Source: Acidobacteriaceae bacterium
Lineage (GTDB): Bacteria > Acidobacteriota > Terriglobia > Terriglobales > Acidobacteriaceae
Assembly: GCA_003131315.1 (NCBI GenBank)
Contig: PKUV01000169.1
Span: 278 to 59,663, forward strand
DNA length: 59,386 bases
Reading direction: 5' to 3'
The notes under the pieces were generated by a model. That model saw only the letters and a list, made by a program, of their open reading frames with translations. It made no database searches and was not told where the DNA came from. This document shows, piece after piece, positions 2,309 through 6,353 of the stretch (position 1 is its first letter; every line of letters starts with the position of its first letter). Position numbers and translations under genes: made by a program.

Positions 2309-2713
2309 ATGCGTGTAACCGACGGTCGTTATCCCTACAACATCGCTCGTTGCCGGCACATCAAGGTCAACGGAACCCAGTGCGGCTCGCCCGCACTCAG
2401 AAATCTTTGCCTCTGCTACTTCCATCACCTGTCGCAGCGCACCAACACTGAACTCAACGCCAACCTAGCCCGCCGCGGTTCCCCGGGTTCCATCAGCCTG
2501 CCCATCCTCGAAGACGCCAACTCCATCCAGTTCGCTCTCATGCAGGTCATGCGTCTCCTCTTGACCGGAGAGATCGAGCACAAAACCGCTGCCCTCCTCC
2601 TCTACACCCTGCAAACCGCGTCTCACAATCTGTCCCGCACCGAATTCAATCCCCCCTCCGCAGGAGGTCGTCATCGACCGCTCCGGCGTAGCCGACACCA
2701 ACCTCGGCGATGA
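2309..2713 (+). CDS. C/H-rich putative zinc-binding protein, 3' part frameshifted
   Basis: The N-terminal part is a small C/H-rich motif (C-x9-C, then further Cys and a YFHH), plausibly zinc-binding, followed by a helical stretch with the segment EDANSIQFALMQVMRLL. I recognise this as a common acidobacterial family of unknown function. The frame as given ends at residue 134 in an Arg-rich tail that looks artificial. After the C6 run at 2651-2656 the neighbouring frame reads on with PPQEVVIDRSGVAD and a strongly acidic Glu/Asp tail, open to a stop at 3111-3113. One C fewer would join the two. This is either a sequencing error or a true frameshift. The extended frame would overlap the convergent sulfur-carrier gene by about 200 bp. 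Confidence 0.6.
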   Translation: MRVTDGRYPYNIARCRHIKVNGTQCGSPALRNLCLCYFHHLSQRTNTELNANLARRGSPGSISLPILEDANSIQFALMQVMRLLLTGEIEHKTAALLLYTLQTASHNLSRTEFNPPSAGGRHRPLRRSRHQPRR

Positions 2714-2913
2714 TGCCTGGTACAAACAGGAATTTCAGGAAGAACTCGACGCAGAAGAAGCAGAAGACGGCGAAGAAGAAGACAACGAAGAAGAGAACGA
2801 CGACAACAACGAAGACGACAGAAAACAAGCAAAACAAGCCAAGCAAGCCAAAGACGGCGACTCCCGGGACTCCGTAAACCTCAAAGCCGCCGCCGAAACT
2901 TCTACCGAATCTT

Positions 2914-3195
2914 CTACTGCAAACCGCCCGCGATCGAAGGCACCAGCAGTACCTCGTCGCCGTCCTGGAACGAATACGAAGCGCCCCCCAGGAAGCGAAT
3001 ATCTTCCTCATTCACATAGATATTCAGGAACCGCCGCGTCTCCCCCGCTTCATCCCGCAAATGGGGCTTCAAGTCGGGGAACTGCTGGTCGAGCTCCGAG
3101 AACAGCTCACTGAGATTCGCAGCCGAGCACACAACGCGCGGCGTCCCAGAAGTAAGCCGCCGCAAAGCCGTAGGAATTTGAACTGTGATGCTCAT
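2914..3195 (-). CDS. CysO-like MoaD/ThiS-family sulfur-carrier protein with GGLQ tail
   Basis: This 93-residue ubiquitin-fold protein closely resembles mycobacterial CysO, also 93 residues, sharing the pattern RFLNIYVNEEDIRFLGG and the late DGDEVLLVPSIAGG. Family members are adenylated and thiocarboxylated at a C-terminal Gly-Gly and then donate sulfur to a PLP enzyme. Here Leu-Gln follows the Gly-Gly, so a protease would first have to remove two residues, as JAMM proteases do for other carriers with masked tails. I chose the ATG at 3195 because GGGAGG lies 8 nt upstream; an in-frame upstream start would add seven residues. It lies 122 bp downstream of the threonine-synthase-like gene on the same strand, behind a SAM-I riboswitch. 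No E1-like activator or JAMM gene is in the window. Confidence 0.85.
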   Translation of the reverse strand: MSITVQIPTALRRLTSGTPRVVCSAANLSELFSELDQQFPDLKPHLRDEAGETRRFLNIYVNEEDIRFLGGASYSFQDGDEVLLVPSIAGGLQ

Positions 3196-3317
3196 AGAAA
3201 AAACCTCCCGGGCCAAAAGCCCGTAACAAAAATGAAAATCAAGTCATGCGCGTAAGCCATGACGGAAAGGTTCAGCGAAAAGCTAAGAGCCAAAAGCTAA
3301 CAGCGAATAGCGAACGA

Positions 3318-4598
3318 CTAACGACTAACGACCGCCGCCACCGTCTCCGCAACGGCCGCCGGCAAACTAGCCGCCTTCGCCGCCAAATAAGCTTCAAACT
3401 CGGCAAGCTTCGGAGCGATCGGAGTTTCGGCTTGATACTTGTCCGCCAGCACGTCGGTGGTTTTGAGTCCGTTGCCCGTAATGCAGAGCACGGTCGTTTC
3501 ATCGGGCAGAATGCGGTCCTGCTGGATCAGCTTGCGCGCGGTTCCAACCGTTACGCCGCCCGCTGTCTCGGTGAAGATGCCCTCGGTCTCCGCCAGCGAT
3601 TGGATGGCACTGACAACTTCGTGATCCGAAATGTCTTCAGCCCATCCACCGCTTTTGGTGATGGCCTTCAACGCGTAATGTCCATCGGCCGGATTGCCGA
3701 TCGCCAGCGACCGCGCAATCGTCTTCGGACGCTGTGGTTCAATCTCGCTGCAGTACTGCTTGATCGCTGTGGAAATCGGCGAGCATCCAGTCGCTTGCGC
3801 GCCAAAAAACTTTACCGGTTTGGGATCGACCAGTCCCAGGAGAATCAGTTCATCAAACGCTTTTTTGATTTTCGTGATCAGCGATCCGCCCGCCATCGGC
3901 ACCACCACGTTATCGGGCAATTGCCAGCCCAGTTGCTCGGCGATTTCATAGCCCACCGTCTTCGAGCCTTCGGCGTAATACGGACGAAGATTGACATTCA
4001 CGAATCCCCACCGATGTTCGTCGGCGATCTGCGAGCACAGGCGATTGACATGGTCGTAGCTGCCGTTGATGCGCACCAGCTCCGCGCCAAACACTTGCGT
4101 GCCGAGAATCTTCGCAGGCTCAAGATCCGAAGGAATAAAAATCCACGCCTTCAACCCTTCGCGAGCCGCTTGCGCCGCCACCGAATTTGCCAGATTGCCG
4201 GTCGACGAGCACGCCACCGTATCGAACCCGAAGCTGCGCGCATTCGCCAGTGCGACCGCAACCACGCGGTCTTTGAAGCTCAATGTTGGCAGGCACACCG
4301 CGTCATTCTTAACGAAGAGCCGCCGCGATCCGATTTTGTCGCCGAGCCGCGGCGCGCCGACCAGCGGGGTATATCCAACAGGGAGGGAGGGCTGAAACCC
4401 CGCCGGCAGCGGCAGCAACTCGCGATAGCGCCACATGTTCGGCGCGCGCGAGGCAAACAGTTCGCGCGAAATGCGCGAGCGAATCGAATCGTAGTCGTAG
4501 GTAATTTCGAGCGGCGAGAAACAGTCTTCGCAGATGCTGCGCGGCTGGTTGCCCCAGGTCTTGCCGCATTCGCGGCAGCGGAGTTCGTAGGTGCTCAT
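3318..4598 (-). CDS. threonine-synthase-like PLP enzyme under SAM riboswitch control
   Basis: This 426-residue fold-type II PLP enzyme matches the threonine synthase family, which converts O-phosphohomoserine to threonine. A four-Cys zinc ribbon (CRECGK and CEDC) lies at residues 8-28. The PLP-binding lysine is in LSFKDR near residue 109, the Asn-bearing SSTGNLANSVAAQA loop follows, and the phosphate-binding turn PMAGGSL is near residue 227. The last 40 residues are Ala-rich. The gene is preceded by a SAM-I riboswitch and followed by a CysO-like carrier. CysM, the partner of CysO, is a related PLP enzyme. From the context I infer that it may use a carrier thiocarboxylate to make homocysteine or a related thiol from O-phosphohomoserine. 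Ordinary threonine synthesis, repressed by SAM at the shared branch point, is the alternative. Confidence 0.85.
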   Translation of the reverse strand: MSTYELRCRECGKTWGNQPRSICEDCFSPLEITYDYDSIRSRISRELFASRAPNMWRYRELLPLPAGFQPSLPVGYTPLVGAPRLGDKIGSRRLFVKNDAVCLPTLSFKDRVVAVALANARSFGFDTVACSSTGNLANSVAAQAAREGLKAWIFIPSDLEPAKILGTQVFGAELVRINGSYDHVNRLCSQIADEHRWGFVNVNLRPYYAEGSKTVGYEIAEQLGWQLPDNVVVPMAGGSLITKIKKAFDELILLGLVDPKPVKFFGAQATGCSPISTAIKQYCSEIEPQRPKTIARSLAIGNPADGHYALKAITKSGGWAEDISDHEVVSAIQSLAETEGIFTETAGGVTVGTARKLIQQDRILPDETTVLCITGNGLKTTDVLADKYQAETPIAPKLAEFEAYLAAKAASLPAAVAETVAAVVSR

Positions 4599-4657
4599 CC
4601 TGCAACTTCTTTCCGTGACTGCGGGACGAGCCGGGAAAAATTCCCCAGTTACGACAA

Positions 4658-4686
4658 AACCCCTTTCCCAAATTGGAAAAGAGGTT
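4658..4686 (-). terminator. hairpin of the SAM riboswitch expression platform
   Basis: On the minus strand a 12-bp stem (AACCTCTTTTCC pairing with GGGAAAGGGGTT, two G-U pairs) encloses a 5-nt loop and is followed by TTGT. It sits between the aptamer and the PLP enzyme start, where a regulated transcription terminator is expected. The U tract is short, so termination may be weak. Confidence 0.6.
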
Positions 4687-4719
4687 CGGGAGATGCGAAC
4701 AATTCGCTTCCACCCCGAA

Positions 4720-4820
4720 TCTCATGGTCCCCGTTGCCGGGCGAGAGTTGGCACCTGACGATCAACAGATCCGGTTGCCGTGGCGTCCTAGGGCTCGTCC
4801 CTCAGCCACTCTTCATGAAA
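4720..4820 (-). promoter_or_regulatory. SAM-I (S-box) riboswitch
   Basis: Read on the minus strand, this stretch carries the S-box core in order: GAGTGGCTGAGGGACGAGCCC, then GGCAACC, then GGTGCCAA. The outer P1 helix closes exactly (TTTCATG with CATGAGA, one G-U pair). A terminator-like hairpin lies 34 nt downstream, and the PLP-enzyme start codon is 121 nt beyond the aptamer. SAM-I aptamers bind S-adenosylmethionine and usually switch off methionine and sulfur genes when SAM is plentiful. The sequence and pairing are seen directly; the off-switch logic is inferred from the family. Confidence 0.9.
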
Positions 4821-4951
4821 TTCCAGCTCGCCCAAAATAGAGCGAACTTGGAGTCAGATACTACAACCGACCAATCGGCCTGTCAAGCGCGATTTCGCTG
4901 CCGGATTGCACCGCCGAGACGCCGAGCTCGCCGAGAAATTCTCTTAGGATT

Positions 4952-5059
4952 GTTATCCTTCTTAAGCGCGCCATTCTTCTTACGCTTGTCATTCCGCTTA
5001 AGCTTGCAATTCTTCTTACTCTCGCCATTCCGCTTAAGCTCGTCGTTCCTCTTAAAGTA
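4952..5059. repeat. six tandem 18-bp repeats
   Basis: Six contiguous, degenerate 18-bp units with consensus GYCATTCYKCTTAAGCTY lie between the PLP enzyme and D-Ala-D-Ala ligase genes. Most units keep CTTAAG or CTTAC in the same place. The array runs directly into a GTCATCCCGAGCGAAGCGAG element (5061-5080), a widespread type of bacterial intergenic repeat. No spacers or repeat-spacer structure are present, so it is not CRISPR. Confidence 0.8.
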
Positions 5060-5129
5060 TTGTCATCCCGAGCGAAGCGAGGGATCTGCAGTTCTCCGCG
5101 CTCTCGGCGTCTCGGCGGTGAATCGCCCT

Positions 5130-6353
5130 TCAGCGACTGTACTGATTCCGTTTTTTGTCTTCGTGACGCTCGATGCCGAGCTGGATCAGCCGATCAATCA
5201 ACTCGGAATACGCCACTCCCGTTGCCGCCCACAGCTTCGGATACATGCTGATCGCGGTGAAGCCAGGCATGGTGTTGATCTCGTTGACGAAGATCCTGCG
5301 CGACTTTGGGTCCATCAGAAAATCGACGCGCGCCAGGCCCGTGCAATCGACCGCTTGAAACGCCGCAATCGCCAGCCTCTGCACCGTTTTCATTTCCGCT
5401 TTCGTGATCTTCGCGGGGATCACCCCTTCGGAGCCTTGCACCAGATACTTCGCGTCGTAGTCGTAGAACTCTTTACAGGGAACGATTTCTCCCGCAACCG
5501 ACGCTTTGGGGTCGTCGTTGCCGAGCACCGCGCACTCGATCTCGCGCGCCCTGTTCTTCTTTCCGCCGACGCCTTCCTCAATCACGATCTTGCGATCGAA
5601 CTTTGCCGCTTCCGCGATGGCAGGACCGAGTTCCTTGCGATCGTGCGCCTTCGAGATTCCCACCGACGACCCAAGGTTCGCGGGCTTCACGAAGACTGGA
5701 TACTTCAGCTTGCTCTCCACCAGTTTCTGCACTTTCTTCGGCACTTCCTTCGACTCGGGCTCGAATTGGCTGCGCAACACGGTCACGTGCTTCACGATGG
5801 GCAATTCGGCAGCGCGGAACAAAGCCTTCATGACGTCTTTATCCATGCCCGCGGAAGAGCCGAGCACGCCGGCGCCGACGTAGGCGATGTCGGCCAATTC
5901 GAGCAGACCTTGAATCGTTCCGTCTTCACCGAAGGTTCCGTGCAGCACGGGGAAGATGACATCCACGTTAATCGCGCGATCCGAAGCGCGCCGCAGATTC
6001 GCATCGGTCTGAAAGGGCGCGAGTCCAGCTTCGCGCCGCGCAGGTTCCGGAGGAACGACCACCGACTCGCCTCGAGCCAGCACCGCAGCCCCCGGAGTCG
6101 CCTCCGGATCGCCCGCCCGAAGTTGTGTGGCGCGGGCACAATCGCCCGCGGCGTCTTCGTCTTTGCCCTTGCTCTTCAGCAAACGTTCGGCGTGTTCCGC
6201 CGTGAGCCAGCGGCCGTCTTTCGTGATGCCAATGGGAACTACTTCGTATTTCGTTTTATCAATTGCATTCAGAACGGACGCCGCCGACAGCAACGACACT
6301 TCATGCTCGCCGCTGCGTCCGCCAAAGAGGATGCCAACCCGGATCTTTGCCAT
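5130..6353 (-). CDS. ddl: D-alanine-D-alanine ligase
   Basis: This 407-residue ATP-grasp enzyme joins two D-alanines for peptidoglycan precursors. The N-terminus has the typical GGRSGEHEVSLLSA motif at residues 11-24. The central part has the LHGTFGEDGTIQGLLE substrate loop and KPANLGSSVGISK, and the C-terminal catalytic end has DFLMDPKSRRIFVNEINTMPGFT. Residues of about 67-105 form an insertion rich in Ala, Gly and Arg, part of which is encoded by a palindromic repeat (GCGGGC...GCCCGC at 6132-6149) that stays in frame. The start is the ATG before KIRVGILFGG; no strong ribosome-binding site is visible. Confidence 0.93.
   Translation of the reverse strand: MAKIRVGILFGGRSGEHEVSLLSAASVLNAIDKTKYEVVPIGITKDGRWLTAEHAERLLKSKGKDEDAAGDCARATQLRAGDPEATPGAAVLARGESVVVPPEPARREAGLAPFQTDANLRRASDRAINVDVIFPVLHGTFGEDGTIQGLLELADIAYVGAGVLGSSAGMDKDVMKALFRAAELPIVKHVTVLRSQFEPESKEVPKKVQKLVESKLKYPVFVKPANLGSSVGISKAHDRKELGPAIAEAAKFDRKIVIEEGVGGKKNRAREIECAVLGNDDPKASVAGEIVPCKEFYDYDAKYLVQGSEGVIPAKITKAEMKTVQRLAIAAFQAVDCTGLARVDFLMDPKSRRIFVNEINTMPGFTAISMYPKLWAATGVAYSELIDRLIQLGIERHEDKKRNQYSR
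6132..6149. repeat. palindromic repeat inside ddl coding sequence
   Basis: A GCGGGC-ACAATC-GCCCGC hairpin preceded by GTGTGGC lies in frame within ddl. The same arrangement in reverse, with CGCGGGCAAGAGTGCCCGCG followed by CCACAC, is intergenic at 18368-18393. It appears to be a repeat element tolerated as a peptide insertion. Confidence 0.6.

Follow-up and report, generated by a model that had tools for sequence, protein, structure and literature searches.

We examined a 59,386-nucleotide stretch of DNA (the window) from an Acidobacteriaceae bacterium (GenBank assembly GCA_003131315.1, contig PKUV01000169.1, positions 278 to 59,663 of the forward strand), in which a SAM-I riboswitch, of the type that responds to S-adenosylmethionine (SAM), precedes the genes for a threonine synthase-like pyridoxal phosphate (PLP) enzyme and a small sulfur carrier. 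We refer to these genes as metM and metO, after the Streptomyces genes that they resemble. The order on the minus strand is a sigma-70-like promoter, the SAM-I aptamer, antiterminator- and terminator-type hairpins, the PLP enzyme gene, and the carrier gene, as follows:

4858..4886, minus strand: sigma-70-like promoter, TTGACA-17 nt-TAGTAT, just upstream of the aptamer (consensus scan)
4719..4821, minus strand: SAM-I (S box) aptamer, RF00162 71.2 bits (gathering threshold 44.4, E 1.1e-14) over the full model length, P1 with 8 pairs in the fold
4681..4723, minus strand: antiterminator-type stem (lowest-energy structure of the transcript truncated ahead of the terminator's 3' arm)
4656..4686, minus strand: intrinsic terminator hairpin with T tract (fold and terminator scan)
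3318..4598, minus strand: MetM-type PLP enzyme, threonine synthase-like, 426 aa, PF00291 221 bits, TIGR00260 (thrC) 270 bits
2914..3195, minus strand: MetO/CysO-like sulfur carrier, 93 aa, ending SIAGG-LQ, PF02597 (ThiS/MoaD family) 48.7 bits

The host genome (G000) comprises 6.0 Mb in 194 contigs, with 99.7% completeness and 2.4% contamination, and the RF00162 match at 4821..4719 (-) was the only one found in it; the same search gave matches in 3 of 14 control genomes. A reading of this DNA made from its letters (the original prediction) had placed here a full SAM-I aptamer with a matched P1 helix, followed by a terminator hairpin. The Rfam search bore this out with a score above the gathering threshold, and both the paired P1 and the hairpin with its T tract, which the terminator scan placed at 4683..4660, are present; the layout needed revision in that the aptamer boundary is at 4821, and aptamer and terminator are separated by an antiterminator-type stem. 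In this stem, the 3' strand of P1 and the next bases (GAGAUUCGGG) pair with CCCGAACCUC with one mismatch; CCCGAACCUC overlaps the start of the terminator's 5' arm, and the terminator itself uses CCUCUUUUCC. The scans are weak alone, giving 1 promoter versus 0.7 expected in shuffles and 6 terminator sites in 2850..5130 versus 3.2 expected. A stem at the antiterminator position appeared in the folds of nine of nine leaders (the window's own, L040, and L100–L106, the last being those of the seven best-scoring relatives), with differing sequences, and the same relatives carry terminator hairpins like that of the window. The P1 3' strand was also paired with the terminator's 5' arm, via the stem's outer bases, in four of the nine full-length folds (L102, L103, L104, and L106). 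A crude terminator finder was positive in 29 of 44 riboswitch leaders, at least two of which (L163 and L179) look spurious, and it found none in the Granulicella-like leaders (L041–L043, L109–L111, L117, and L120). As modeled, the P1 3' strand competes with the terminator through the antiterminator, which is the behavior of an expression platform, and the leader is predicted to be the usual off-switch acting by termination.

The enzyme was compared with its relatives in two sets. One was an even draw of 60 Acidobacteriota genomes, at least 90% complete and including the host, in which we drew the border of MetM at 48% identity or more to the window enzyme; the next match lies at 38%, the gap between is empty, and 19 of the 60 genomes fall above it. 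The other consisted of the best 80 of 588 relatives of the enzyme, so its counts describe the nearest relatives, and it covers Acidobacteriota, Nitrospirota, Nitrospinota, Planctomycetota, Cyanobacteriota, Omnitrophota, Armatimonadota, Myxococcota, Mariprofundaceae, and others. With one locus from the actinomycete Nonomuraea gerenzanensis, these made 100 MetM loci, among which the 19 and the 80 may share organisms. The Nonomuraea orthologue (L180), 54% identical to the window enzyme, served as a stand-in for Streptomyces MetM. The description of the window enzyme as a PLP enzyme of threonine synthase type was confirmed by both family models (PF00291 and TIGR00260), and the N-terminal four-cysteine motif is invariant in the 19 aligned MetM rows. 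In a tree of 113 rows, built by a quick method and containing some long branches, a branch of support 100 divided the 100 MetM proteins, including Nonomuraea and ten cyanobacteria, from the 13 ThrC-like rows.

The carrier gene starts 122 nt past the metM stop. Judged from the sequence, its start is more likely ATG 3195 than the listed TTG 3216, because the relatives' alignments fit the former and GGGAGG lies 8 nt upstream of it. The best solved relative of the product is Mycobacterium tuberculosis CysO (3dwg_C, E 3.7e-18), followed by the ThiS/MoaD family protein 4n6e_B (E 1.5e-16), in agreement with the predicted resemblance to mycobacterial CysO. The pairing of enzyme and carrier genes proved to be conserved; a same-strand carrier is found no more than 1 kb downstream of MetM in 79 of the 100 loci, leaving 21 loci with no carrier in that interval. 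SAM-I stands upstream of MetM in 34 of the best 80 relatives, some of which have only short upstream sequence, and Nonomuraea has the same three-part order of SAM-I, MetM, and carrier.

Within the phylum sample, MetM was never found together with the enzymes that open the acylhomoserine route. MetX or MetA occurred in 0 of 19 MetM genomes versus 20 of 41 others (p 8e-5; the p values of the survey take no account of relatedness among genomes), and a CysO/MetO-like carrier was encoded somewhere in 19 of 19 versus 7 of 41. MetX was counted with TIGR01392 from 145 bits rather than from the model's own cut-off of 500 bits, because none of the 60 genomes and none of the 14 controls reaches the latter. 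Among the non-MetM genomes, the count was 17 of 41 with only MetX above 250 bits (p 5e-4) and 21 of 41 with a 149.5-bit candidate in G020 kept; we dropped this candidate as a hydrolase, on the same grounds as the PRK06489- and PRK07581-like proteins that follow. A hidden MetX in the MetM genomes was considered and rejected: 6 of the 19 hold partial matches of 79–118 bits (G049, G055, G044, G057, G038, and G027), 7 only matches below 30 bits, and 6 none. The six 79–118-bit proteins were not counted because they fit PRK06489 or PRK07581 models best (four exceed the PRK06489 cut-off) and have, by eye, a secretion-signal-like start. G016 carries a MetX fragment of 63 bits at a contig end, which stands outside these figures and is entered as MetX in the riboswitch tally below. 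Despite being at least 90% complete, 20 of the 60 genomes, G016 among them, were scored in the first count as lacking MetM as well as MetX/MetA, so other routes or losses exist; these genomes have either another homocysteine route or auxotrophy.

The riboswitch survey of the same genomes used stricter filters, by which weak matches may be lost. SAM-I was found anywhere in 10 of 19 MetM genomes versus 13 of 41 others, which is no difference (p 0.16). What differs is the gene behind it: 28 riboswitches stood before MetM in 10 cases (nine within 0.4 kb, and one, in G018, at 2.3 kb), before MetX in 4 (one being the fragment), before MetA in 3, and before none of these genes in 11, and no riboswitch was found before any of the 62 ThrC-like genes of the 60 genomes. 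Five of the six genomes from the host's own family have SAM-I and MetM; in the remaining one (G007), MetX is present and no SAM-I was matched. Behind the SAM-I of G001 (locus L247), a single frame joins a MetX-like domain (PRK08775, over cut-off) to the start of a cystathionine gamma-synthase-like domain.

The host genome itself gave no match to MetX (TIGR01392) or MetA (PF04204) at E 0.001. It encodes two full-length PF01053 enzymes, one (C71) adjoining a cysteine-synthase-like gene and the other (C128) in the neighborhood of ilvE and a thrC; a further 11 PF01053 matches are partial, at most 31 bits each. Neither full-length enzyme reaches the cut-off of the MetY model TIGR01326. Of the conventional homocysteine genes whose absence the original prediction had suggested looking for, MetX, MetA, and any MetY above cut-off were not found, and C128 is a cystathionine gamma-synthase-family enzyme.

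The closest published parallel is in Streptomyces, where MetM is a homocysteine synthase that converts O-phosphohomoserine (Hasebe et al. 2024, AEM 90:e01247-24, as cited by PMC12172450), and excerpts of the latter paper also describe a SAM riboswitch upstream of S. albulus metM. The acidobacterial locus shares with that system the threonine-synthase-like enzyme, the CysO-like carrier gene, the upstream SAM riboswitch, and the missing acylhomoserine route. It differs in its host and in the two-residue tail that its carrier bears past Gly-Gly, and its expression platform is of the transcription-terminator type; in contrast, only 13 nt separate the aptamer from the start codon in the actinomycete Nonomuraea. 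The MetO thiocarboxylate is reportedly the sulfur donor for MetM in Streptomyces, where metO is said to lie downstream of metM. The reaction that the original prediction had offered by analogy, namely homocysteine from O-phosphohomoserine and a protein thiocarboxylate, is as reported for Streptomyces MetM, so the acidobacterial unit represents a new example and not a new pathway. Our literature search, made in a limited set of papers that did not include the text of Hasebe et al. 2024, found no report of a unit of SAM riboswitch, threonine-synthase-like enzyme, and carrier in Acidobacteriota.

We conclude, with considerable confidence, that this locus is an acidobacterial form of MetM/MetO, serving homocysteine synthesis under feedback control by the SAM-I riboswitch. 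The gene content, the riboswitch match, the conservation, and the exclusion with MetX/MetA are observed, and this context (the SAM-I match, the pairing in 79 of 100 loci, and the lack of MetX and MetA) supports the homocysteine reading that the original prediction had favored. By analogy, the enzyme is a proposed O-phosphohomoserine:protein-thiocarboxylate homocysteine synthase. In the proposed sequence of events, MetO would first carry its Leu-Gln tail, a JAMM protease from another part of the genome would cut this off, and a distant MoeZ-type E1 with a rhodanese domain would adenylate the exposed Gly-Gly and convert it to the thiocarboxylate. MetM would then take O-phosphohomoserine from the threonine branch, eliminate phosphate on PLP, and add the carrier sulfur to give homocysteine. 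With methionine, hence SAM, plentiful, the aptamer would bind SAM and close P1, freeing the terminator, and transcription would end before metM, and with it before metO if, as we presume, the two genes are co-transcribed.

Several observations weigh against this conclusion. For 9 of the 19 MetM genomes, the search gave no riboswitch ahead of MetM, and in 10 of the 19 acidobacterial loci MetO is not adjacent. The other adverse points concern a possible second source of homocysteine and the family to which the enzyme belongs, and they are the starting points of the two better-placed alternatives.

The first of these is that homocysteine comes mainly from O-phosphohomoserine by plant-like transsulfuration, through C128 and with C71 as the lyase, MetM/MetO being secondary. 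The genome does hold these two full-length PF01053 enzymes, and the solved relatives of C128 include the cystathionine gamma-synthase chain 1i41 (313 bits), which we take to be the tobacco enzyme; on sequence, a second homocysteine route via C128 is possible. C128 nevertheless gives similar scores for a number of lyase and synthase families and falls below the cut-offs of all 25 NCBIfam families shown, C71 lies beside its cysteine-synthase-like neighbor as in reverse transsulfuration, and the only SAM riboswitch found stands before MetM. We consider transsulfuration improbable as the main route.

The second alternative is an ordinary threonine synthase, with threonine deaminase as a possible side activity; the carrier would then have another partner, and the riboswitch would limit the drain of O-phosphohomoserine. 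The enzyme's score exceeds the curated thrC cut-off (270 versus 167.1 bits), so annotation pipelines would label it threonine synthase, and with that family (TIGR00260, PRK08197) it shares the fold, the N-terminal four-cysteine motif, and, as proposed here, the substrate O-phosphohomoserine. Excerpts of PMC12172450 describe a cyanobacterial homologue from Microcystis with 51.6% identity to S. albulus MetM: in vitro it acts both as a threonine synthase and as a threonine deaminase, and in cells it does not seem to fill the whole MetM role; the gene beside it, for a putative sulfur carrier, is compared there with S. albulus metO. Two of the 19 MetM genomes (G013 and G027) gave no second ThrC-like match at E 1e-40. 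Against these points, such a match is present in the other 17, and the host genome has two further ThrC-like proteins, one above the thrC cut-off (C128, TIGR00260 273.6 bits) and one above that of PRK08197 (C45, 566.8 bits), so the window copy is probably not needed for threonine. The separate side of the tree, the riboswitch that none of the ThrC-like genes has, the exclusion with MetX/MetA, and the constant presence of a carrier also set MetM apart. On the tree, the paralogues, and the riboswitch, we rejected an ordinary ThrC identity for the window enzyme, and this alternative is in our view very unlikely. Slightly less likely still is a homocysteine synthase that uses free sulfide in the cell, with the carrier accessory or serving cysteine, as the 21 loci with no carrier nearby might suggest, given that every MetM genome encodes a carrier somewhere and that carrier adjacency spans many phyla.

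Returning to the MetM/MetO unit, the form of its carrier bears on how sulfur would be loaded. The product does not end exactly in Gly-Gly; it ends in GGLQ, although the Gly-Gly is present and conserved, and processing would therefore be needed before an E1 could act on it. Among the 79 adjacent carriers, 27 end exactly in Gly-Gly and 46 have a tail of 1–14 residues; of the remaining 6, 4 carry an 80-residue extra stretch, 1 has a 33-residue extension, and 1 has no readable end. Outside cyanobacteria and Nonomuraea, 51 of 69 have a tail or extra domain past Gly-Gly. The two-residue tails in L100–L106 read SR, AC, AK, WS, AE, AK, and AR, while the rest of the carrier remains 72–84% identical to that of the window (L104 over 57 residues only), so the tail itself seems unconstrained. 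In the carriers with 80 extra residues (L127, L128, L151, and L168), these are by eye reminiscent of NIL domains. Ten further loci (L187, L190, L192, L196–L201, and L208) have the carrier fused through an internal Gly-Gly to a MoeZ-type E1-rhodanese, in frames of about 480–570 aa whose E1 and rhodanese parts were recognized by eye from the C88 protein described below. Four other Acidobacteriota genomes that have MetM (G013, G023, G027, and G045) gave no carrier match at E 1e-5 apart from such a fusion.

The host genome encodes four ThiS-family proteins: the window carrier, a short ThiS-like protein (C58), one that looks by eye like a MoaD-MoaE fusion (C153), and a second CysO-like carrier (C88), which ends SIAGGC. 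Directly after this second carrier comes a MoeZ-like E1 with a rhodanese domain, and C88 also holds the sole JAMM match of the genome (PF14464, 86.9 bits), with an intact HxHP...SxxD motif (HSHPDHPAQWSPTD). A remnant of cysM lies 5' of this JAMM/carrier/E1 set (L031:6558-6929); compared with the cysM of same-family relatives, it matches best at E 3e-14 and shows a deletion and a frame change. At the same position, the four same-family relatives compared (L223, L228, L229, and L231) align with cysM over about 300 codons, three with no stop and L223 with one in the aligned part.

JAMM matches above 60 bits occur in 17 of 19 MetM genomes versus 9 of 41 others, and, within the MetM genomes, in 15 of 15 with a tailed or E1-fused carrier versus 2 of 4 others (p 0.035, relatedness ignored); 3 of those 15 also have a carrier ending in Gly-Gly. 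This is only suggestive of a link between tails and protease, and the link may not hold for cyanobacteria, because Synechococcus elongatus also has a PF14464 match. We tentatively propose, with rather more doubt than conviction, that most MetM carriers, those of cyanobacteria and Nonomuraea aside, are made as capped precursors and cut by JAMM before charging. In this host, the activating set of JAMM, E1-rhodanese, and second carrier would have survived beside the decayed cysM; what was once a cysteine system would now act in trans for methionine, and MetM/MetO alone would be under SAM control.

Two other carrier systems offer comparisons. In M. tuberculosis, the CysM/CysO/Mec/MoeZ system has CysM as its PLP partner and cysteine as its product. 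The host resembles it in having a CysO-homologous carrier and homologues of the E1-rhodanese and the JAMM protease, and it differs in that the PLP partner is ThrC-like, the proposed product is homocysteine, and the cysM of C88 is a remnant. For MoeZR, a role in M. tuberculosis cysteine biosynthesis is reported (PMC3227635). A protein-thiocarboxylate route to methionine has been described in Wolinella (Krishnamoorthy and Begley 2011, as cited in an excerpt of PMC5764234). Like that route, the one proposed here would make methionine via a protein thiocarboxylate, and the carriers of both have one or more residues past Gly-Gly; unlike it, the host has no MetX, MetA, or over-cut-off MetY that we could find. 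In the HcyS/HcyD/MetY system of W. succinogenes, the residue after the Gly-Gly of HcyS is reportedly removed by a JAMM protease, and MetY is said to act on O-acetylhomoserine.

Genomes with neither MetX nor MetA whose MetM is labeled threonine synthase could be miscalled as methionine auxotrophs. Within this one phylum, MetM, MetX, and MetA replace one another behind a common riboswitch, a clear example of a regulator retained while the controlled enzyme changes, and this exchange offers a simple genomic marker for the route. Two aspects might surprise a specialist: the riboswitch kept at the pathway entry while the enzyme behind it changes, and the capped carrier, whose activating set remains next to a decayed cysM.

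Some features of the surrounding DNA were also recorded. A 134-aa frame with no Pfam or NCBIfam match (2309-3000, plus strand) converges on metO and seems to run into another frame, acidic and rich in repeats, near the C run at 2651-2656; a sequencing slip or a break in the frame may explain this. Two intergenic gaps, 1140-1195 and 3273-3332 (the latter between metM and metO), hold short arrays built of 7- and 14-bp units such as AAAAGCC, and the gap between ddl and the metM promoter (4960-5055) contains a tandem array of 18/36-bp units (CTTAAGCTCGCCATTCTTCTTACGCTCGCCATTCCG).

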